Shown piece by piece: positions 50,499 through 61,016 of a DNA stretch of 64,000 bases. A program made the position numbers and the translations under genes. A model generated the notes under the pieces. It saw nothing but the letters and a program-made list of their open reading frames with translations. It made no database searches and was not told where the DNA came from. Numbering within the stretch: position 1 is the first letter of the stretch; the number at the start of each line of letters is the position of its first letter. Origin of the DNA: SAR202 cluster bacterium. Its GTDB lineage: Bacteria; Chloroflexota; Dehalococcoidia; Lucifugimonadales; VXLM01. The stretch lies in the NCBI GenBank assembly GCA_022448725.1, contig JAKUTR010000009.1, positions 1 to 64,000 of the forward strand. Reading direction: 5' to 3'.

Positions 50499-51071
50499 AT
50501 GCTTAATTCGCTCTTCAGACGTAATAAGCGGAAGCCGGTTGGTAGTGCCCCTACTGATGACGGCATCAGTTCGGCCGAGGTTAGCGACGTATTCACCGTC
50601 TCCGGGTTTGACGTAGAACTCGATACCGGTTATTACCTGGTTGAATCCAAACATCGGTACAAGACCGTCTATGCAGAATGGTTCGAGATTATTGGAGCCG
50701 AGGGAGACAAGAAACTGTGGGTCTACTGGTCACACGATGCAGGACAATTATTTGTTTCGGTCACTGCTGACAACACACCTCTCAGCAGCAATGCCCTAGG
50801 CCTATCCCATGAAGATTTAGTGAAACTGGACGAGGAACACTCCATCGACAACTACTTCACATACAACGGTACGGAGTACTACTATACCAACAGTGGGGAA
50901 GCTTTCTATTTCCAAGAGAACGCGGGTGAGGGGAGTGGGTATTATACTTGGGATTTCATCAGCTCTGACGAGACGATGGTACTATCTGTAGACAAGTTTG
51001 AAGGGCGTCCCTTCGAAGGATACATTAGTGAAATCGTCAGGCCTGACAGTATTACCGTTTATAAACAATAA
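50499..51071 (+). CDS. DUF4178 family protein
   Basis: A 190-residue protein that resembles DUF4178. After a basic N-terminus (LFRRNKRKPVG) it shows DTGYYLVESKHRYKTVYAEWFEIIG, KKLWVYWSHDAGQLFVSVTAD, NYFTYNGTEYYYTNSGEAFYFQENAGEGSGYYTWDFIS and SVDKFEGRPFEGYISEIVRPDSITVYKQ, all fitting the family pattern of repeated aromatic strands. No signal peptide. DUF4178 genes commonly sit next to DUF350 genes, as here (31 bases apart). Function is unknown; a role in a membrane stress or polyamine-linked system has been proposed for the neighbourhood, from memory. Confidence 0.75.
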   Translation: MLNSLFRRNKRKPVGSAPTDDGISSAEVSDVFTVSGFDVELDTGYYLVESKHRYKTVYAEWFEIIGAEGDKKLWVYWSHDAGQLFVSVTADNTPLSSNALGLSHEDLVKLDEEHSIDNYFTYNGTEYYYTNSGEAFYFQENAGEGSGYYTWDFISSDETMVLSVDKFEGRPFEGYISEIVRPDSITVYKQ

Positions 51072-51102: not shown

Positions 51103-52005
51103 ATGCTAGACGCCTTCTACGACACGTTTGAATTATTGCCCCGCGGATTGATCTATGTCGCTCTCGGGATATTGGTGGTCTACTTTGCCAAGTTAATACA
51201 GGATTGGATTACTCCATACCGGATCGGTGACCAGGTTGGTACCGGCAAGAACAACGCACTAGGCCTAAGTCTATCCGGCTACTTTGTTGGCGTGATCATA
51301 GTCTTTGTAGCTGTTCTCTACACGCCATTTAGTAGCGGTGGATCAAACCTTACCTTTGATATTGACTTTGCCACTGAAGTCTTGCAGGTGTTCTTGTATT
51401 CCATGGGTGGCATTCTAGTACTGAACTTGACCCGTTATCTTATCGACCACTTAGTACTCCGAAAATTCAAAGTTGAAAAAGCTATCATAGAGGATCAGAA
51501 TATCGGGACGGGTGCCGTTGAGTTTGGGATCTACATCGCCGTAGCACTAGTGATAGCTTCATCCTTGGCAGGAGAAGCAGCTGCCACGAGTATCGTTGAG
51601 GAGATCCTACGATCCGTGGTCTTTTTCCTGCTTGGGATGGTTGTACTGGTAGCGTACACCTATTTCTACCAGTTCACGACGCGCTACGACATTCACGATG
51701 AGATCGAGCGCGCCAATCCTGCAGTAGGGATCACTGTTGCAGCGAACCTTATAGCGATCGCTATAGTGACCTTTAAAGCAGTGTATGGGGTGTTCATGGG
51801 GTGGGGAGAAAGCCTAGTCTCATTCGTAACATTCGCAATCACTGGATTTATCCTTTTACTTGTGGTCCGGTGGATAGTGGATAAAGTAATCTTCCCACGT
51901 ATCAAAATCCCGGCAGAGTTATCTGAATCCCAAAACACCGGGGTAGCGTTCATAGTTGGGGGTGTAGTCATCAGCGCTTCGCTAGTACTTTATTTCGCAA
52001 TTTAA
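51103..52005 (+). CDS. DUF350 family membrane protein (YjfL-like), duplicated
   Basis: A 300-residue protein with about eight hydrophobic segments arranged as repeated DUF350 units. Each unit has a polar N/G-rich motif before a helix: KNNALGLSLSGYFVGV, QNIGTGAVEFGIYIA, NPAVGITVAANLIAI and SQNTGVAFIVGGVV. DUF350 (YjfL in Escherichia coli) is a membrane protein of unknown function. It follows the DUF4178 gene, and its stop is 9 bases from the convergent operon 52015-61016, whose K+ channel is also often encoded near DUF350. Confidence 0.85.
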   Translation: MLDAFYDTFELLPRGLIYVALGILVVYFAKLIQDWITPYRIGDQVGTGKNNALGLSLSGYFVGVIIVFVAVLYTPFSSGGSNLTFDIDFATEVLQVFLYSMGGILVLNLTRYLIDHLVLRKFKVEKAIIEDQNIGTGAVEFGIYIAVALVIASSLAGEAAATSIVEEILRSVVFFLLGMVVLVAYTYFYQFTTRYDIHDEIERANPAVGITVAANLIAIAIVTFKAVYGVFMGWGESLVSFVTFAITGFILLLVVRWIVDKVIFPRIKIPAELSESQNTGVAFIVGGVVISASLVLYFAI

Positions 52006-52014
52006 CCGCAGATA

Positions 52015-53004
52015 CTAGCGATCCAAGTAACGAAGGAGTCGACGATGACGCTCATCGGCTTCGTGTGCTTCCATGTCTTCTTCAATTAGAGTCAGTCCCT
52101 CATTGATCACATCATCAAGAATCGTGGCTGCAACCTCATCACGATTTACGACTGGTTCTATGGATTTTGAGAAAAACTCCTCATCACAAAGTGCACCTAT
52201 CAACTTAAGGTCGGTTTCTCTACCTACACCACTGTCATATAACATCCTTGAAAAGACCGCTCTTATCGGGTCTATACCTTCCGCCTCATAAACTTGAACA
52301 CGAATGTCCAGCCCCCTAGCTAACCCGAAAGCTGTTTCACTTGTCTCTTCATCGATATCTACATCTGCAAAAATATCGTACCGCTCGATCATCATCTCAG
52401 TATCAGCGGCCTGGACCTCCATGGCCCTGTAACCAGCTTCTGTAATCTGATAACCCTCCTGACCTCCTCCGTACTCTAGGAGATCATCCTCAACGAGACG
52501 GTTAGCAGTAGCAAATAAGCCTGAGTGGCTTTCATCACCAGCTAAATTAGACAAGATATGGTTGTAACGATCTAAATAATGAATCATCAGTTGAGTCTGT
52601 AGCGAGTCAATTATTTTTTTACACGTTTCGTAATAGCTTCGAGCTACGGCATATTGAAAAGGGGTATATTGATAATTCACAATCAGGTTTAGGATTCCAT
52701 TATGAATGTGAGCATCTATGGTGTCTGTGTGACCAATTGCCCCCATCCCTGTCTTAAAGCTAATCGAACATTTCTGTGAGCGTGAGTCGCTGATAGCACG
52801 TCCACATAGCCGGTAGATTTCTCCACTGTCCGGGTTCTTACCTTCGTCAAAATCCGGCTCAGAATACGGCCCCTCACATGGCGGCCACAGGTAGTTAATC
52901 AAGTCCGCGACGCTTAGATTGCGTTGCGCCAATGCAATTACCATCTCGAAATCGTTTTCGTCAGATGGTCCAGCTAGATGTACTTGAAGTATGAAATCAC
53001 TCAA
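52015..53004 (-). CDS. Uncharacterised protein with possible winged-helix segment
   Basis: A 329-residue protein that I do not recognise. The N-terminal part starts SDFILQVHLAGPSDENDFEMVIALAQRN; the middle has VARSYYETCKKIIDSLQTQLMIHYLDRYNHIL; a possible winged helix follows with ANRLVEDDLLEYGGGQEGYQITEAGYRAME; the C-terminal 110 residues are acidic and helical. The start chosen is TTG at 53004, because the longer frame would overlap the lipoprotein gene by 61 bases; the ribosome binding site is weak, so this start is uncertain. It is the last gene of the SecA-like operon, 23 bases behind the lipoprotein. Confidence 0.6.
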   Translation of the reverse strand: MSDFILQVHLAGPSDENDFEMVIALAQRNLSVADLINYLWPPCEGPYSEPDFDEGKNPDSGEIYRLCGRAISDSRSQKCSISFKTGMGAIGHTDTIDAHIHNGILNLIVNYQYTPFQYAVARSYYETCKKIIDSLQTQLMIHYLDRYNHILSNLAGDESHSGLFATANRLVEDDLLEYGGGQEGYQITEAGYRAMEVQAADTEMMIERYDIFADVDIDEETSETAFGLARGLDIRVQVYEAEGIDPIRAVFSRMLYDSGVGRETDLKLIGALCDEEFFSKSIEPVVNRDEVAATILDDVINEGLTLIEEDMEAHEADERHRRLLRYLDR

Positions 53005-53027
53005 ACAGCACCCATACCTAGCCGAAT

Positions 53028-53852
53028 CTACAGTTCTTTGTCGCGCATGGATCCTACGATCATTTGGCCCCCACCTCCGCCACGGCACCCCCCTCCACTG
53101 CTAGCACGCCCAAAACTCGAACCACGACCAGAAGAGCCCCAACTACTTCGGACACCTGTCGAACTTGTCCGAAAGCTGCCTCTGCTTTTTGACCTGGATT
53201 GGTAGGTTTGCCTGCTCTGGCTAAGTTTGCGACCTGATTCAGAATAGCGCGATCCGGCGAAACTCTTTTGTCGATTGAAGTAAGACGAGTTATTGTTTAC
53301 CTGATTACGATATTGGTTCGTTGTTCTGTAACGATTTCGATGTGCCCTCACTGAATAGTTACCGGGCGGGGAGCTATAGAAATACCCTCTCGGGCTCAAA
53401 GATGAAATCATCATGTAGGTGAACAGGAAATTCCCAGCACCAAAGTTTGAGTGGTAATAGGAGTTAGCATGATAACCCCTTGTTTCATAGTTGTTGTCTT
53501 TGTGTTGAGTTATTGAAAATAACTGATCGTCTGCCTGCTCACTAATCAAGGTATTTGAGTCTAGGTCCTCCCATCCTTCAAGGATCAGTTGACCATCAGC
53601 CTGCTGGGCACGAACTAGAATGAACCCATCACCTTCGTATATCTCGTTAACGCGTTTTTCAAAATCAGTAGCGCTCTTAGAAGCCTTGAACGCTTCCTGT
53701 ACAGCGTCAAGATTTATCCTTCCCGCCGCACCGTCTGTCTCTGCCCACTCCTCATACGACGGTCCTGTACTACACGCTGCTAAAGTTGGACCGGTAGCCA
53801 CAGCGAGTCCAACCATTGATCGAGTTCCCAACCGTTTGAGCTTAGTCTTCAT
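53028..53852 (-). CDS. Lipoprotein with Arg/Ser/Gly-rich low-complexity tail
   Basis: A 274-residue lipoprotein of unknown family. The signal runs KTKLKRLGTRSMVGLAVATG with lipobox LAAC at about residue 27. The mature domain (about 35-150) includes EYEGDGFILV-like IYEGDGFILVRAQQADGQLIL and GWEDLDSN, then YETRGYHANSYYHSNFGAGNFLFTYMMISS. The C-terminal 120 residues are rich in Arg, Ser, Tyr and Gly with no Glu or Asp until the end and close with GGGGGQMIVGSMRDKEL. GGGAGG precedes the ATG. It sits 17 bases after the SecA-like gene, which makes it a candidate partner or substrate of that ATPase. Confidence 0.75.
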   Translation of the reverse strand: MKTKLKRLGTRSMVGLAVATGPTLAACSTGPSYEEWAETDGAAGRINLDAVQEAFKASKSATDFEKRVNEIYEGDGFILVRAQQADGQLILEGWEDLDSNTLISEQADDQLFSITQHKDNNYETRGYHANSYYHSNFGAGNFLFTYMMISSLSPRGYFYSSPPGNYSVRAHRNRYRTTNQYRNQVNNNSSYFNRQKSFAGSRYSESGRKLSQSRQTYQSRSKSRGSFRTSSTGVRSSWGSSGRGSSFGRASSGGGCRGGGGGQMIVGSMRDKEL

Positions 53853-53869
53853 AAGATCCTCCCGGAAAA

Positions 53870-56800
53870 CTACACAAGTATCGTCTCGATTTCTTCAGTC
53901 ATTTCATCCGATAATCTTTCAATAGGTGGCTCAGCGAAATTAGAAGTCAGCATCGTCGAAAGAAGTTTTTGATGTACACGTGAAATAAACGTGCGATATT
54001 CACGGCTAGCTTCCAGAGCAAACCAGGCGACCCCAGATGAGTGACCGTTGCTCGAAAGACTGGCACTTGTCATCATCCCTTGCAACTCCTGTAGATGTCC
54101 GGTCCACAGATCATCCCCTGTCATCAAAAACAGATTTTGGGACAGTTGATCAAACTTGTGAGGCCCCAAGCTATCTCGTAAACCACTAAGGCCCTGAGCC
54201 ATCAATTGGGAAACGCCAATCCCTAAGTTGTCGGAACCAAGACCCCATAAGTTACTGGCATCAATACCAAAGTCATGCATCAACTCTTCGGCCATCTTAT
54301 TGAAACTCTGATCGTAGGTATGGTCAGTCCGGACTTGAAAATACTTCCCTAGAATCTGCCGTGCCACTTGTGTAACCAAATCTAGACAATCATCAAAGCA
54401 GTGGTTGCTTTTAGTCACCGAACGCCTTAACGCATAGTAAGTATTAGTCTGCTGTTCTATCACCCTATCGTAATCCCGACCAACGTTACGGATAGACTCT
54501 GCATCCTGCTCAACAGCCGATTGGAGCCTGCTGATTAGGCGCGGAGCTTCGGAATCGCTTACCGAACCATCTCCTGACGTATGCGCACCAGTGATACCTC
54601 TGTAGACAACAGGCTGATCTTCTAGAGAGACAATCAGCTTTGAACTTCCATATGCCCCTTGGCGTCCTGCACGGCCACGCAACTGGAGGTCCACACGATA
54701 CGAGTCGTTCACTTCTGTTCCGATGACATGTAGGCCAAGCCCGAACTGAATCCGGACTGGTTCAAGACCCGAGTCCAATCCGCGATCGTTAGCAATCACT
54801 ACTGTCTTGTCATCTGGTATTTTGCAAGCAAAGTCGGCTGATTCTCTAATCTGTGTAAGTAGTACGGCCGCCACCTGGGAGGTAGCACACTCAACTACAA
54901 CTGATTCCCCGGAAAAAAGCTGGGGACGTACTTGCGCTAGGAAGGTTGCTAAAACCCGTTCGTCGAGATCCTCATCAAGCAAGATGTCTGTACCACGACC
55001 AGCCATATTGGTTGCGACGGTTACGACCCCGTATGAACCTGCACGGCGAATTAGTTCAGCTTCATCCTCATTGGTAACCGCGTTGAGTACCTGGTGTTCG
55101 ATACCAGCAGCCTTCAAGGCTTGGCTCATTTCTTCGGACTGTTCTACCGTGAGCGTACCTACCAACACTGGACGGCCCATTGCATTTACGGCTTTGGTTT
55201 CTCTTACGATTTTCTCGAGCTTCTGCAGACGGGTCGAACATACCAGTGGCTCATAGTCGGTACGTTTCGACGCTTGGCTGGACGGTACTCGAACGATACT
55301 TACTCCGTAATTGCGACTAAATTCCGCCTCGGCTTGAAGCGCCGTCCCCGTCATTCCAGATAATCGACCGTAGTGACGTGCAAAGCCTTCGACGGTGAGA
55401 TAGGCGAGGAGTTCATTTTCCGGAGTAATTGGCAGTCCTTCTTTCGCTTGCAGAGCTGCCTGAAGACCATGCTGATACTTCGTGTCGACCCTTCTACGAC
55501 CTGTGAACCGATCGACCAAGACGATCTCGTCATTCGCAATGATATAGTCCTGGTCCCTATCTAGTAATAGGTACGCACGGAGAAGTTGGTACACCTGATT
55601 AATACGGTTATGGCATCGCGAAATCCGCCGCTGTATTCGTTCAGATTTGAGTCTTATCTCATCAAAACTAAGGCATTCGTCAGCAGCAAGTGCGTCCAAC
55701 ATCGCCTCAAGATTGACTGTGTCAAACAGAGGACCCAGTTGCTCCTCAAGAAACCGTTGGCCACGCTCTGTCAAAGTCACCACGCCTTTACGAAGATCCA
55801 ATTCGTAATACAAATCATGTGTTATCGAATTGTCGGAATCCTCATGGAAATCTTCCACAACCCCAACGATTCGGGTAAGGAGTCGCTTATCACTGGCGAT
55901 CCGCTCTGTGATAACCGGATTGGATGGATCCGCGACGTATACCTTGGCAAGAGAAGTTATGGTGTCCAGCTTGGTCTTTTTGATCAGTGATTCAGTTACC
56001 CGTTTTTGTCGCTTGATGATTTCCTCGATAACTCGCCGAGGTGCGTGGATCGAGCGCCCGTCCACTCTTGGGCGCCCAGCAATAATAAGAGGCGTCCTTG
56101 CCTCATCAATGAGAGTGTGGTCAGCTTCATCAACGATCATTACTTGACGTTTCCCCTGAACATTCGAGTCCGGGGTGTGACGCAAGTTGTCTCGCAAAAA
56201 ATCGAATCCAAATTCACGCAGCGTCCCATACACAACTTGTTTGCGATACGCAGTCCTACGGGTATCCTCGCTCATATACGACAGAACGGTGGACAGATCC
56301 AATCCCAGAAACTCATAAAGCGGGGCGAGCATTTCTGCATCCCGAAGCGCCAGGTAATCATTTGCAGTCACTACATGGACGTTCTCGCCGGATAAACCAC
56401 TCGCCGCGACGGCAAAGGCCGCAGCTAAAGTTTTTCCTTCCCCTGCGTCCATTTCCACAACGTTGCGTCCCATCAATAGCCTACCGGCCCAAATCTGCTC
56501 GTCAGTAGGTTCAAAAGTCAGAACGCCAGAGCGATCTCGTTCGCGGATCGCTTTATAAAACTGTGGGGACAAATCTATATCGGCGTGGTAACTCACTTCC
56601 ATCTTCGAAAGAACCCAAGCTAAAGTCTTTACGATCTCTGTGTCGAGCTCATCCAATTGGTAACGCGCAACGCCGTCGGAGATGACTCCCAAGAACCTAT
56701 CACTGTCCAGGTACTGGTCATCAGTATAGAATTCGATTTCGGATCTGTGCAGACTCGTCTTATTAATTTCGTTCGCCAAATCCCGGTAGTGATTAAGGGA

Positions 56801-57022
56801 TTGTTGATTGAATTCAGAATCAAAGATTTGCCATATCCCGAGTCGTCTCCGGATCGCTTCAGTTGCAGCCGCGAAAAAATACTCGTCATCTGGCCTGTCA
56901 GCATACTCCTGAAAAACAGCTCGCAGTTCCACATCAGAAGTCTCTGTAAGATGGTAGCTTCTAACTTTCTTTAAAAAGTGGCGGCTATCAGAATCAGTAA
57001 ACTCCCAACCGATGATTTTCAT
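53870..57022 (-). CDS. Divergent SecA-like translocase ATPase
   Basis: A 1050-residue SecA-type motor. Walker A is MDAGEGKTLAAA (residues 191-202), Walker B MIVDEADHTLIDEARTPLIIAG (295-315), then GRLSGMTGTALQAEAEFS, VATNMAGRGTDILLDED and GLHVIGTEVNDSYRVDLQLRGRAGRQGAYGSSKLIVSLED. The C-terminal scaffold end is recognisable (LWTGHLQELQGMM...WFALEASREYRTFISRVHQKLL). Two oddities: about 100 residues (70-170) are inserted between the usual RRxLGxxxFD segment and the Q motif (PTDEQIWAGRLL), and no C-terminal zinc motif is present. It overlaps the GNAT gene by 4 bases (ATGA). It is more likely an accessory SecA than the housekeeping copy, but this cannot be shown from one window. Confidence 0.88.
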   Translation of the reverse strand: MKIIGWEFTDSDSRHFLKKVRSYHLTETSDVELRAVFQEYADRPDDEYFFAAATEAIRRRLGIWQIFDSEFNQQSLNHYRDLANEINKTSLHRSEIEFYTDDQYLDSDRFLGVISDGVARYQLDELDTEIVKTLAWVLSKMEVSYHADIDLSPQFYKAIRERDRSGVLTFEPTDEQIWAGRLLMGRNVVEMDAGEGKTLAAAFAVAASGLSGENVHVVTANDYLALRDAEMLAPLYEFLGLDLSTVLSYMSEDTRRTAYRKQVVYGTLREFGFDFLRDNLRHTPDSNVQGKRQVMIVDEADHTLIDEARTPLIIAGRPRVDGRSIHAPRRVIEEIIKRQKRVTESLIKKTKLDTITSLAKVYVADPSNPVITERIASDKRLLTRIVGVVEDFHEDSDNSITHDLYYELDLRKGVVTLTERGQRFLEEQLGPLFDTVNLEAMLDALAADECLSFDEIRLKSERIQRRISRCHNRINQVYQLLRAYLLLDRDQDYIIANDEIVLVDRFTGRRRVDTKYQHGLQAALQAKEGLPITPENELLAYLTVEGFARHYGRLSGMTGTALQAEAEFSRNYGVSIVRVPSSQASKRTDYEPLVCSTRLQKLEKIVRETKAVNAMGRPVLVGTLTVEQSEEMSQALKAAGIEHQVLNAVTNEDEAELIRRAGSYGVVTVATNMAGRGTDILLDEDLDERVLATFLAQVRPQLFSGESVVVECATSQVAAVLLTQIRESADFACKIPDDKTVVIANDRGLDSGLEPVRIQFGLGLHVIGTEVNDSYRVDLQLRGRAGRQGAYGSSKLIVSLEDQPVVYRGITGAHTSGDGSVSDSEAPRLISRLQSAVEQDAESIRNVGRDYDRVIEQQTNTYYALRRSVTKSNHCFDDCLDLVTQVARQILGKYFQVRTDHTYDQSFNKMAEELMHDFGIDASNLWGLGSDNLGIGVSQLMAQGLSGLRDSLGPHKFDQLSQNLFLMTGDDLWTGHLQELQGMMTSASLSSNGHSSGVAWFALEASREYRTFISRVHQKLLSTMLTSNFAEPPIERLSDEMTEEIETILV

Positions 57023-57684
57023 CCCGATACCTCACTCAAGGTTAGCGACTGAATCATTGATTGAAATTGGTCATCTCTATCTAATCTATCTACCCTATAA
57101 ACTTCCCGGTAAATTTCTGAAAGTATATTTTCCATATTAAGCTCGATCTCGATCCGGCCGATACTGACAGGCTGAATTACTAGGTTGAGTACGTTTTCAT
57201 GTAAGCCTTGAACCGCTGGTTGTAGATACTCACAATCGACCACGAAGGCTCCCCATTCATGAAGATACTTTTCCATTAGCAGACTCGTATCAGCCAACTC
57301 GGAGATTACGAAATCGACTCCCTTTTTTGCATGGGCATGAGATTGGGCATGAAATTCTTTAATCAACTTATGCCTCATCTCACCATAGAATCCGTTACCC
57401 CTATTTGCTGATCGCACCCCCGCGTAGATTACCATCCCAGCGTTAAGTTTGGTTAGATAGTTTCCGAACATGGCGCCGACCAAAACGTTACCTTTCTTTG
57501 CAACTAAGAGCAGTGGGACAAGCTTGTCAGTCCGTACCAAAGAGTGTTTGAAAGATTCAAGGGTCTCAACGTCTCGGCCTCCGATTGCCACCTTCAATAG
57601 GTCATGTACATCTGCAACCAAGGTAGAATCTAGCTTAGTAGGGTCCACAGATTCTACGGTCAAAGAACCCCTATTTCCCGTCAT
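57019..57684 (-). CDS. GNAT family acetyltransferase-like protein
   Basis: A 221-residue protein with a GNAT-like fold. The acetyl-CoA-binding segment is LVGAMFGNYLTKLNAGMVIYAGVRSANRGNGFYGEMRHKLI, where RGNG matches the Q/RxxGxG/A loop. The C-terminal 60 residues (IELNMENILSEIYREVYRVDRLDRD) are extra and helical. The start chosen is ATG at 57684, which overlaps the channel gene's stop as ATGA; a longer frame would extend 27 bases further. It overlaps the SecA-like gene by 4 bases as well, so the three proteins are translated in coupled fashion. Its acceptor is unknown; modifying the secreted partner or the motor is possible. Confidence 0.75.
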   Translation of the reverse strand: MTGNRGSLTVESVDPTKLDSTLVADVHDLLKVAIGGRDVETLESFKHSLVRTDKLVPLLLVAKKGNVLVGAMFGNYLTKLNAGMVIYAGVRSANRGNGFYGEMRHKLIKEFHAQSHAHAKKGVDFVISELADTSLLMEKYLHEWGAFVVDCEYLQPAVQGLHENVLNLVIQPVSIGRIEIELNMENILSEIYREVYRVDRLDRDDQFQSMIQSLTLSEVSG

Positions 57685-58745
57685 GAAAACATCGCACTTA
57701 ACTCTTTCCAACTCCGTCGCTGGCTGTCGATGTATATAAGTAAGTCATCTAACCTGCAAGTTTCTCCCGTGAAGCTGAGCATAGGTTTTCCGTCCCTGAT
57801 AATGCCTACAAGGTTCACATTGTGATCGAGTAAGCACTTGGCTACTTCATCGTAATTCGTTGTATTAACAGGCTGTAAATCAACGAGGGTACTTGCAAAA
57901 GTCCCTTCAATTTCGTTGCTCGTAATCGCCTGAGCTAAAGTGGTGACCCCAGGATCCTGAGCCTCCTGTACCAGCAAATTATTCGCAACGCTAATGGTAT
58001 ATACAAGCGAGACATGCTCAGAACTGGAAAAGAGGATAGCGTGTCTGGGATTCAAGCACTCTGCGACAATCTTTGTATTAGGATTCAGACTCTCGATCAC
58101 AAATGCAACCGAAGCAACAAAGCTATCACTACGGGGATCACTGTACCCGGTGCTCAGAATGATCGCCTGTGAAGCATGTTTAATACTTGCACGCGTATAG
58201 GTATCCCTCTCTAAGGGGGATCCCCTTACGAACGATACATTCGGCATTCCAAACGGCAGGCGCTCAAGCTGATCGGTTACAACGACAACCTCTCGACCTT
58301 TGTGTTGCTCATCACTTGAAAATTCCTCAATGATTTGCCTGACTCGTTCCTCGCCAGGAAAGTTCACAACGAGCAGATGGCCTCTGGCAGTGGGGGTACC
58401 CATACCTAGTTTCTCCTTTTCCCGGATGTCGACAACCCACTCAACCAACGTTCCTACAGCGGTAGTAAACGCAGTGAGCCCAGTCAAAATAATGAAAATG
58501 ACCGTAGCCGCTCGTGCACCAAGGGTCGTCGCCTGTAAATCTCCGTAACCTATAGTGGTAATTGAAACGGCGCTATACCAGAATGCATCCCCAACGGTGA
58601 CTGAGGGGACGACAACTCGTTCAAAATAATAGAAGCAAATCGTATTCCCAAGGACACTCAGTGCTAGCACAGAAAGAATGAACATTACGCCCAGTCGGCG
58701 GCGGCGGCGCATTTGACGTAGTAGTCGGGCTATTGAGTAGTACAT
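57681..58745 (-). CDS. Potassium channel with RCK (TrkA-N) domain
   Basis: A 354-residue two-helix K+ channel subunit. The N-terminus is basic (RRRRRLG), then a transmembrane helix (about 18-40), the pore with selectivity filter SITTIGYGDL at about 61-70, and the inner helix (about 76-105). The cytoplasmic part (from about 120) is an RCK domain with GHLLVVNFPGEERVRQIIEE and several alternating strands and helices, ending in a TrkA-C-like region with LVGIIRDGKPMLS. AAGGA stands 5 bases before the ATG, which overlaps the end of the upstream gene by 16 bases. Ligand of the RCK domain is unknown. Confidence 0.92.
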   Translation of the reverse strand: MYYSIARLLRQMRRRRRLGVMFILSVLALSVLGNTICFYYFERVVVPSVTVGDAFWYSAVSITTIGYGDLQATTLGARAATVIFIILTGLTAFTTAVGTLVEWVVDIREKEKLGMGTPTARGHLLVVNFPGEERVRQIIEEFSSDEQHKGREVVVVTDQLERLPFGMPNVSFVRGSPLERDTYTRASIKHASQAIILSTGYSDPRSDSFVASVAFVIESLNPNTKIVAECLNPRHAILFSSSEHVSLVYTISVANNLLVQEAQDPGVTTLAQAITSNEIEGTFASTLVDLQPVNTTNYDEVAKCLLDHNVNLVGIIRDGKPMLSFTGETCRLDDLLIYIDSQRRSWKELSAMFS

Positions 58746-60145
58746 GGTCTTCCTTGAAGGGAGATCACTGCCAGTCCTGCTTCGTAAGGTCTTCCCATAC
58801 TCTGCTCATATCTATCCAGTAAATGTTTCTTCGACGCTATAATCTGTTCACTGCTGTAAGGGTCTCGCTCGGCAAATTCGCATCCCATAGGCCCGTTTAA
58901 GCTCCAGTCACCTAACACTTCACATGTAAGACCAGCTTCGGCACACGCCTTCTCATACTGGGTACGTATTGTATCGAAACCCTCTTCAGTTCTGTACATC
59001 ACTGGGGTCACCATAAACTCTTTTCCTATAAAGAGACCAAGCTCATTATCAAAAACCTGGACGAGATCAACGTAAGGTATCCATCCTTCCAGTGCAAAAA
59101 GCAGGTCATTTACGATTTGTTGAGACACCTGATGATAGTAGTAATCTTCGGAATTTACTGCCATCCTTACGTGCACAGGTTGCTTGGCTTCATAGCCAAG
59201 CACTTGCTCAACTTCATGCCCGCCTAGGAAAAGGTACGGGATGTTACCGTTCGTAGCGTCAACAAGAAAATCCCCCGTGTCCAAGTGGTACAGCAATGCA
59301 ATGTGCTGCCAATACCGCATATAGCGCTTGGAAGCGGTAAAGTCAAAGGTTGTGAGTAACTCCCGTAACTGTTCCTCCGGAACTGGCCCCGGAGAATATG
59401 GTCCAGCGAGAACATATTCAGACTCTAAAGCATAGTGGTCGGTCAGAAATTTCAAGGCCTGTACTTTCTCAGTACAAATTCCACCACCGCCATCGCAAAT
59501 TGAGCGGATAGTCTCGTCCCCAGTCTTGAAAGGCAAACGGCTGCCTGTAAATCGAGAGAAATTCTCAAACGGAGCCTCCCATATCCTACGTGCTAGGGCG
59601 TCCACGAAATTCCTCTCGGCCTCACTACTATCACGGGCTAAGACTTCATCCGGGTCATATGAAGACTGGTTTTGAATTACGGCCTCACGAACAAACGCTT
59701 CATACATTGGAGCGTCCCGATCCCACCTTCGCCTATGAAAGCCTACCCAGTTACGGTCGTAGCCAATACCGGTACGATCGATCTCAATTTCAATGAGTTT
59801 TACTACTTGACCATCTACACGGACATCGCGAGATGCTACGGTGTCGTCCAGTCGAATAGGATTACCATCTTGGATGAACTCGATCCCATCAAAGGGATCA
59901 TGTAGAACTCCACTATCAGAAGAAAGATACACATAGTCCTGTATCACTTTAATTTGACTAATCACACCCTCTGAAATCCGTCCCTGGCGAAGTAGCTCTG
60001 AGATTGAAGGGTTTTTGAGATATAAATCCATAAGTCCGGCCAAGGAGACAGCAGCGTGTTCCTCAATGATGCGAACTGCAAACCGACGACTCGTCAAGGA
60101 GTCGGTGAATTGAACAACGGTATTCTCGCTGCGGCGATCACTCAT
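58730..60145 (-). CDS. Transglutaminase / arylamine N-acetyltransferase-like cysteine enzyme
   Basis: A 471-residue protein with a papain-like catalytic triad. GGGGICTEKVQALKFLTDHY holds the cysteine (about residue 224), WQHIALLYHLDTGDFLVDATNGNIPYLF holds the histidine (about 281 or 287) and Asp (about 296), which is the order used by transglutaminase-like proteins and arylamine N-acetyltransferases. The first 200 residues and last 130 have no relation I can name. The start chosen is ATG at 60145, overlapping the DegV stop by 8 bases; a TTG two codons earlier (60151) is possible. It overlaps the channel gene by 16 bases. It may cross-link, hydrolyse or acylate a peptide or amine. Confidence 0.65.
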   Translation of the reverse strand: MSDRRSENTVVQFTDSLTSRRFAVRIIEEHAAVSLAGLMDLYLKNPSISELLRQGRISEGVISQIKVIQDYVYLSSDSGVLHDPFDGIEFIQDGNPIRLDDTVASRDVRVDGQVVKLIEIEIDRTGIGYDRNWVGFHRRRWDRDAPMYEAFVREAVIQNQSSYDPDEVLARDSSEAERNFVDALARRIWEAPFENFSRFTGSRLPFKTGDETIRSICDGGGGICTEKVQALKFLTDHYALESEYVLAGPYSPGPVPEEQLRELLTTFDFTASKRYMRYWQHIALLYHLDTGDFLVDATNGNIPYLFLGGHEVEQVLGYEAKQPVHVRMAVNSEDYYYHQVSQQIVNDLLFALEGWIPYVDLVQVFDNELGLFIGKEFMVTPVMYRTEEGFDTIRTQYEKACAEAGLTCEVLGDWSLNGPMGCEFAERDPYSSEQIIASKKHLLDRYEQSMGRPYEAGLAVISLQGRPCTTQ

Positions 60146-61016
60146 CCTCAACCCAGTACGCTACGCCCAGTAAACCAGGCCCCGTGTGCGCTCCCATAAC
60201 CGGTGAGAATTCGCTGACATAAATCTCTGGAGCATTACATTCCATTCTAAACCGAGTCCGTATGTCATCCGCGCCCACAGGATCATCTCCATGTAGCACT
60301 GCGATATGTGCCTTTCTCGATCCAACATCTCTAAGACTAAGATCAACCATCCGGGTTAAAGCGCGACGACGACTCCGCACGCGAGCAATTACCTTAACGT
60401 TACTTCGGTGCATTTCGAAAAGGGGTTTTATTTGTAGAAGACGGGTTCCCCAATGGGCGATAACCGGCACTCGGCCACTTTTCCACAGGAAGCGCAGGGT
60501 ATCGAGGAAAGCAAGAAGTCGCACCTGTGGGGTTAATCGTTTAAGAACGTTGGAAATTTGATCAATTGAATATCCCGCAGTGGCGAGACGAACTGCCTCT
60601 AAAACTATCAGTCCTTGACCACCGGCCGCGGTTTCCGAATCGACAATTTGGATATCTGCTCCCGGTTGTTCAGCCTTTACCAGCCCCAATGCTAGATTAG
60701 CCGCCCTATAAGTTGAACTGAATTCCGGGGAGACCGTTATACATAGTACTGACATTCCTTCTACCGTCGCTGAGCGAAACGCCTCAGCAAAGGAAACGGG
60801 TGAGGGGGCTGAGGTAGTAGGCATCGTTTTCATATCAGGAAGGCTTCGGTAGAATTGGCGGTGGGTGATACCTTGACCATCCAAAAAGCTCTGACCATCG
60901 ACGACAATTTGTTGAGGAACGACTCGCAGAATCGAAGTGTTCAAGAGAATATCACTAGTTTCCGGGAGTGATGCCCCACTATCAGTAACGATCGCGACAG
61001 GAACCTTAGCTTCCAT
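60138..61016 (-). CDS. DegV family fatty-acid-binding protein
   Basis: A 292-residue DegV-family protein, which binds a fatty acid and, as FakB, presents it to the FakA kinase. Family segments are AIVTDSGASLPE (start), MPTTSAPSPVSFAEAF, ITVSPEFSSTYRAANLA, IVDSETAAGGQGLIVLEA, RLLAFLDTLRFLWKSGRVP and HTGPGLLGVAYW at the end, where His and Gly contact the acyl head. Length is normal. No fakA is in the window. It is the first gene of the coupled minus-strand operon, and its stop overlaps the next start by 8 bases. GGGG lies ahead of the ATG. Confidence 0.9.
   Translation of the reverse strand: MEAKVPVAIVTDSGASLPETSDILLNTSILRVVPQQIVVDGQSFLDGQGITHRQFYRSLPDMKTMPTTSAPSPVSFAEAFRSATVEGMSVLCITVSPEFSSTYRAANLALGLVKAEQPGADIQIVDSETAAGGQGLIVLEAVRLATAGYSIDQISNVLKRLTPQVRLLAFLDTLRFLWKSGRVPVIAHWGTRLLQIKPLFEMHRSNVKVIARVRSRRRALTRMVDLSLRDVGSRKAHIAVLHGDDPVGADDIRTRFRMECNAPEIYVSEFSPVMGAHTGPGLLGVAYWVEDE

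Follow-up and report, generated by a model that had tools for sequence, protein, structure and literature searches.

The divergent SecA gene of a SAR202 cluster bacterium belongs to a real, recurring gene cassette, which is a variant of known envelope cassettes and is undescribed in the PMC-indexed text searched; the dedicated SecA is its distinctive part. The cassette lies in a window of 64,000 nucleotides (GenBank assembly GCA_022448725.1, contig JAKUTR010000009.1, positions 1 to 64,000) from a member of the SAR202 bacteria, which are abundant in the deep ocean. Its core consists of a cysteine enzyme resembling arylamine N-acetyltransferases (NAT-like), the SecA, a lipoprotein, a protein referred to here as F4, DUF4178 and DUF350. 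The frequent partners are an NspC-like decarboxylase, DUF3326, a PaaK-like adenylating pair, a K+ channel or PspA, and a GNAT. The tentatively preferred reading is an envelope cassette specific to the lineage of SAR202-type Chloroflexota, in which the dedicated SecA would export the adjacent lipoprotein while the accompanying chemistry would modify the lipoprotein tail or make a membrane-active polyamine conjugate.

Organization of the gene run

As listed in Table 1, the seven open reading frames originally predicted between 52015 and 61016 are all present on the minus strand, and the spacings quoted for them are reproduced with internal starts: overlaps of 8 bases between DegV and the cysteine enzyme (ATG start at 60145), 16 between the cysteine enzyme and the channel, 4 between the channel and GNAT (start at 57684) and 4 between GNAT and SecA, followed by gaps of 17 between SecA and the lipoprotein and 23 between the lipoprotein and F4 (TTG start at 53004). 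DegV, the channel (Ion_trans_2 and Slo-like RCK) and SecA score above the Pfam cut-offs, and their original assignments stand; the other four proteins have no match at that level. The GNAT call corresponds to a weak match, and the cysteine enzyme, initially described as transglutaminase-like, is nearer to the arylamine N-acetyltransferases. Just outside this run, the plus strand encodes DUF350 and DUF4178, both of which are part of the conserved unit. These two genes and the polyamine genes, which the original prediction did not include, hold most of the functional information.

Table 1. Features of the SecA locus and the evidence for their assignment.
Feature	Position	Strand	Evidence
DegV (FakB-like fatty-acid-binding) protein, peripheral	60138..61016	-	Pfam DegV 7.9e-65
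NAT-like cysteine enzyme, 473 aa, triad C226-H283-D298	58730..60145	-	C/H/D invariant in 30 sequences
Two-helix K+ channel with RCK domain	57681..58745	-	Ion_trans_2 1.1e-12, Slo-like_RCK 9.6e-9
GNAT-like acyltransferase	57019..57684	-	Weak Acetyltransf_1/6 matches in relatives
Divergent second SecA, 1050 aa	53870..57022	-	SecA Pfam domains, AF2 model, Foldseek
Lipoprotein, lipobox and Ser/Arg/Gln/Tyr/Gly-rich tail	53028..53852	-	Family alignment, co-occurrence with SecA
F4, putative ubiquitin-like beta-grasp domain, winged-helix-like and helical C-terminal parts	52015..53004	-	AF2 pLDDT 86.8
DUF350 (YjfL) membrane protein, convergent with the operon	51103..52005	+	Pfam 1e-53
DUF4178 protein	50499..51071	+	Pfam 1.1e-9

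The assembly (2.09 Mb, 95% complete) contains two SecA genes, the canonical one on contig C8 and the divergent one in the window, and a single copy of SecY; no SecY2 is found. A tight run of the ligase-like half protein, the NspC-like decarboxylase, DUF3326 and the PaaK-like ligase is located on contig C15 of the same genome (L131, G000:C15, 5146-9724), unlike in relatives, where the NspC-like, DUF3326 and ligase genes adjoin the SecA operon. PspA is not found in the stretches of this genome that were read. The NAT-like gene is distant from SecA in some genomes, either by itself or together with ligase genes (L096, L123 and L124), which recalls the placement of the chemistry genes in the window genome.

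Recurrence and co-occurrence in the order

The divergent SecA was searched in 197 genomes of the order, with a match clearly better than that to canonical SecA counted as positive, and 41 genomes (picked by reading the match table) carry it. From these, 40 neighborhoods were taken, in which open reading frames were predicted, clustered and re-scored with profiles; many of these loci end at contig ends. The original proposal that the neighbors of SecA recur in other genera holds: the NAT-like enzyme is present in 33 of the 40 loci, F4 in 29, the channel in 17 and GNAT, which adjoins the divergent SecA in relatives, in 11. The lipoprotein is present in 36 loci, in 35 of which it is the next marked gene downstream of SecA. 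DUF350 (31 loci) and DUF4178 (27 loci) are always on the strand opposite to SecA, and the lipoprotein, F4, NAT-like, channel, ligase and GNAT genes are on the SecA strand without exception. The remaining partners are the NspC-like decarboxylase and DUF3326 (27 loci each), the PaaK-like ligase (16 loci), the ligase-like half protein (11 loci) and PspA (11 loci). In a few loci, a type III glutamine synthetase (family F26; L053, 17631-18992) follows DUF3326 and is another candidate amide-forming enzyme.

The unit originally proposed is retained in part, for SecA, the lipoprotein, the cysteine enzyme and F4. DegV (5 of 40 loci) is conserved in close relatives and in few other cases and is rejected as a core member, and a universal-stress protein appears in 3 loci. 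Instead of the channel, PspA is often present: the two are nearly mutually exclusive, with one locus containing both (L045-L084; 17 and 11 loci, respectively), which hints at interchangeable roles. No locus contains both GNAT and PspA.

The lipoprotein profile matches 38 of the 197 genomes, all of them among the 41 with the divergent SecA. Both genes are thus found in 38 genomes, SecA only in 3, the lipoprotein only in none, and neither in 156 (Fisher's test 1.6e-37, a value that ignores relatedness). In the three SecA-only genomes, SecA sits at a contig end. The distribution is patchy within genus g235, where four genomes have both genes and seven have neither, which indicates that the association is not a single inherited event. 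The gene order is retained in about 11 families of the order and in one distant Chloroflexota contig; it recurs in about 40 genomes and is therefore far beyond chance. The order is not unique to one genome, the divergent gene is not the sole SecA, and free variation of its neighbors is not seen.

Distribution beyond the order

A scan with the single SecA sequence had returned no match, and the NAT-like alignment was used to scan 84,980 GTDB species genomes. The 43 loci obtained are all from Chloroflexota (titled Dehalococcoidia, SAR202 cluster, or Chloroflexi/Chloroflexota). The most distant locus, on contig CAUJGQ010000168 (L126/L167), contains the NAT-like enzyme, both ligase proteins, GNAT, SecA, the lipoprotein and F4 in the same order. 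An apparently standalone NAT-like gene (G056) proved to be an artefact of a short locus, the core being present in the wider stretch. The divergent SecA is not found in the DUF4178 loci read from other Chloroflexota. One such locus, from another lineage (L163, 7645-11226), has DUF4178, PspA and DUF350 followed by a spermidine-synthase-like (SpeE-like) membrane protein, the latter identified by inspection, and no SecA.

Features of the divergent SecA

The divergent protein contains the SecA DEAD, PPXD, P-loop and wing/scaffold domains in Pfam, and its AF2 model (pLDDT 85) matches SecA structures in Foldseek with an E value of 1e-44. In the aligned divergent sequences, Walker A (GEGKT), Walker B of the DEAD type and the motifs that follow are kept, with few exceptions. 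Three regions are longer than in E. coli SecA: the stretch before the Q motif (169 residues vs 80; family median 188), the DEAD-PPXD junction (91 vs 37; median 98) and an NBD2 loop (86 vs 44; median 90). The two-helix-finger tip [AG]Q[KR]DP (AQKDP or GQRDP) is present in both the canonical SecA of the same genome and E. coli SecA, whereas it is found in none of the 35 divergent sequences that cover the region (two more are not covered there). The loss of the usual substrate-contacting tip suggests that the motor may not translocate in the ordinary way. The divergent SecA also lacks the zinc-binding tail seen in E. coli SecA. All NCBIfam SecA2 models score below their cut-offs, the best reaching 473 bits against an equivalog cut-off of 1085.

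The NAT-like cysteine enzyme

The GGxCxE and FEN motifs and the H-x14-D spacing of the cysteine enzyme agree with those of E. coli NhoA. In hhalign, the comparison with NhoA scores 29.1, exceeding the values obtained with four unrelated proteins and with 100 shuffles (maximum 26.1), and Acetyltransf_2 gives weak matches in 5 of 30 members (best 0.004), which are below the Pfam gathering score. These features point to a NAT-like acyl- or amide-forming enzyme rather than a transglutaminase, with the family assignment lying below established cut-offs. GGxC, FEN and H-x14-D are shared with the arylamine N-acetyltransferases, from which this enzyme differs in its length of about 470 residues with extra parts.

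The lipoprotein, F4 and partner proteins

In the lipoprotein, a lipobox and a globular part are combined with a long tail that carries a GGGG motif near the terminus, and the family alignment has a mean column identity of 52%. Its layout is similar to that of YjfM/YgiB. Membership in DUF1190 is rejected, as shuffled controls outscore YjfM/YgiB; the Pfam model gives weak matches in 3 of 29 members (best 0.023).

Residues 1-115 of F4 match ubiquitin folds, with a best Z of 6.8 over 79 residues, which is below the cautionary value of 8; Foldseek matches F4 to SUMO with a probability of 1.0 and an E value of about 0.04. A relationship to EccD of type VII secretion was considered and rejected, the match being weak, of low probability and absent among the 50 VIA-align entries listed. 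Profile searches of solved structures with the NAT-like, F4 and lipoprotein families give no significant match.

The filter motif of the K+ channel is kept in 34 of 36 relatives. The NspC-like decarboxylase matches TIGR01047 at 2.4e-81, below the equivalog cut-off, and the CLAGD motif is found in 49 of 50 sequences.

Possible function and alternative explanations

No proposed function for the cassette is found in the PMC-indexed text searched. The linkage and adjacency make the lipoprotein the suggested client of the second SecA, with SecY shared. The second SecA would drive export of the lipoprotein through the sole SecYEG of the cell, and F4 may act as an adaptor between SecA and its client. 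The NspC-like decarboxylase may make a polyamine, the PaaK-like ligase may activate a carboxylate, and the NAT-like enzyme, sometimes with GNAT, may transfer acyl groups to amines; together, the chemistry genes suggest that an activated acid is joined to an amine through an amide or ester bond. If E. coli YjfC is taken as a guide, the target is likely either the tail of the lipoprotein or a membrane-acting polyamine. Acyl or polyamine chemistry would then modify the Ser/Arg/Gly-rich tail or yield a polyamine conjugate that is active on membranes and handled by the lipoprotein, and DUF350 and DUF4178, with PspA or the K+ channel, may couple the cassette to the membrane state. Counted against this explanation are the absence of GNAT, the channel, the ligases and PspA, each from many loci, the lost finger tip, and the lack of DUF1190 homology. 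In a narrower version, which would amount to a dedicated export pathway of a new kind, the low-complexity tail of a single lipoprotein would first be acylated or polyaminated by an adenylating-ligase/NAT-like relay, and a SecA whose substrate-contacting element has been remodelled would then translocate this lipoprotein. Such a pathway would parallel the peptide-spermidine ligase route of E. coli without homology to it and is considered quite unlikely.

The lost finger tip, the new domains, the nearby envelope-stress genes (PspA, DUF350 and DUF4178) and the single, shared SecY would also be compatible with a general accessory SecA, similar to SecA2, that serves many envelope proteins under stress, with the lipoprotein as a membrane-side partner or sensor rather than a client. 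This explanation is rather unlikely; a dedicated client would be expected to co-occur one-to-one with SecA and to lie next to it, as the single lipoprotein does, and no other secreted family is seen recurring in most loci. It is similarly somewhat doubtful that the cassette serves the biosynthesis of a small acyl-polyamine or acyl-amine whose envelope target is placed or protected by SecA, the lipoprotein and DUF350. The NspC-like decarboxylase, the adenylating ligase and the NAT-like and GNAT acyltransferases provide a complete N-acyl amine logic, and the chemistry genes move as a unit, as on contig C15, but the ligase pair and GNAT are absent from the majority of loci, where SecA and the lipoprotein persist without them. 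The variable presence of DegV, the universal-stress protein and GNAT might suggest a chance operon without functional coupling, which is very improbable given that the order is held over the families and the distant contig described above and that the lipoprotein never occurs without the divergent SecA.

The cassette connects a protein-translocation motor with the DUF350/DUF4178/PspA/polyamine envelope cassettes, which are poorly understood, and supplies a concrete client candidate. Additionally, a SecA with its ATPase but without the finger-tip motif is a natural test of how the finger tip works.

Comparison with known systems

In the accessory Sec system (SecA2, aSec) of Gram-positive bacteria, a second SecA lies beside a Ser-rich client and its modifying enzymes. 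The likeness is one of analogy, as the SecA described here also adjoins a Ser-rich client candidate and potential modifying enzymes; it differs in scoring below the SecA2 cut-offs, in the absence of SecY2 from the genome, and in that the client candidate is a lipoprotein.

The E. coli yjfIJKLMC operon encodes PspA, DUF350, a lipoprotein and YjfC, which is annotated as a peptide-spermidine ligase and was characterised by Pederick et al. 2023, as cited in PMC12568646. PspA, DUF350, a lipoprotein-like partner with a Ser/Arg/Gly tail and an amide-forming polyamine enzyme are similar in both. The E. coli operon is without SecA and uses an ATP-grasp ligase, whereas an adenylating ligase and the NAT-like enzyme are found here, and the lipoproteins are not detectably homologous.

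Another close counterpart is formed by operons of DUF350 (YjfL), DUF4178, lipoprotein, PspA and spermidine synthase, which are the second CesT/Tir-PspA group of Ravi et al. 2024 (PMC11237479); SecA is unmentioned in the text of that article. The arrangement at L163 is the plain form of these operons in another Chloroflexota genome. In the loci described here, DUF350 and DUF4178 adjoin each other, with lipoprotein and polyamine or PspA genes (in the window genome, the polyamine genes are on another contig), and neither a membrane spermidine synthase nor an ATP-grasp ligase is among the recurring families identified in the 40 loci. The two kinds of cassette have in common DUF350, DUF4178, a lipoprotein, often PspA, and a polyamine enzyme, whereas the membrane spermidine synthase of the described operons is replaced here by SecA, the NAT-like enzyme, the NspC-like decarboxylase, DUF3326 and F4.
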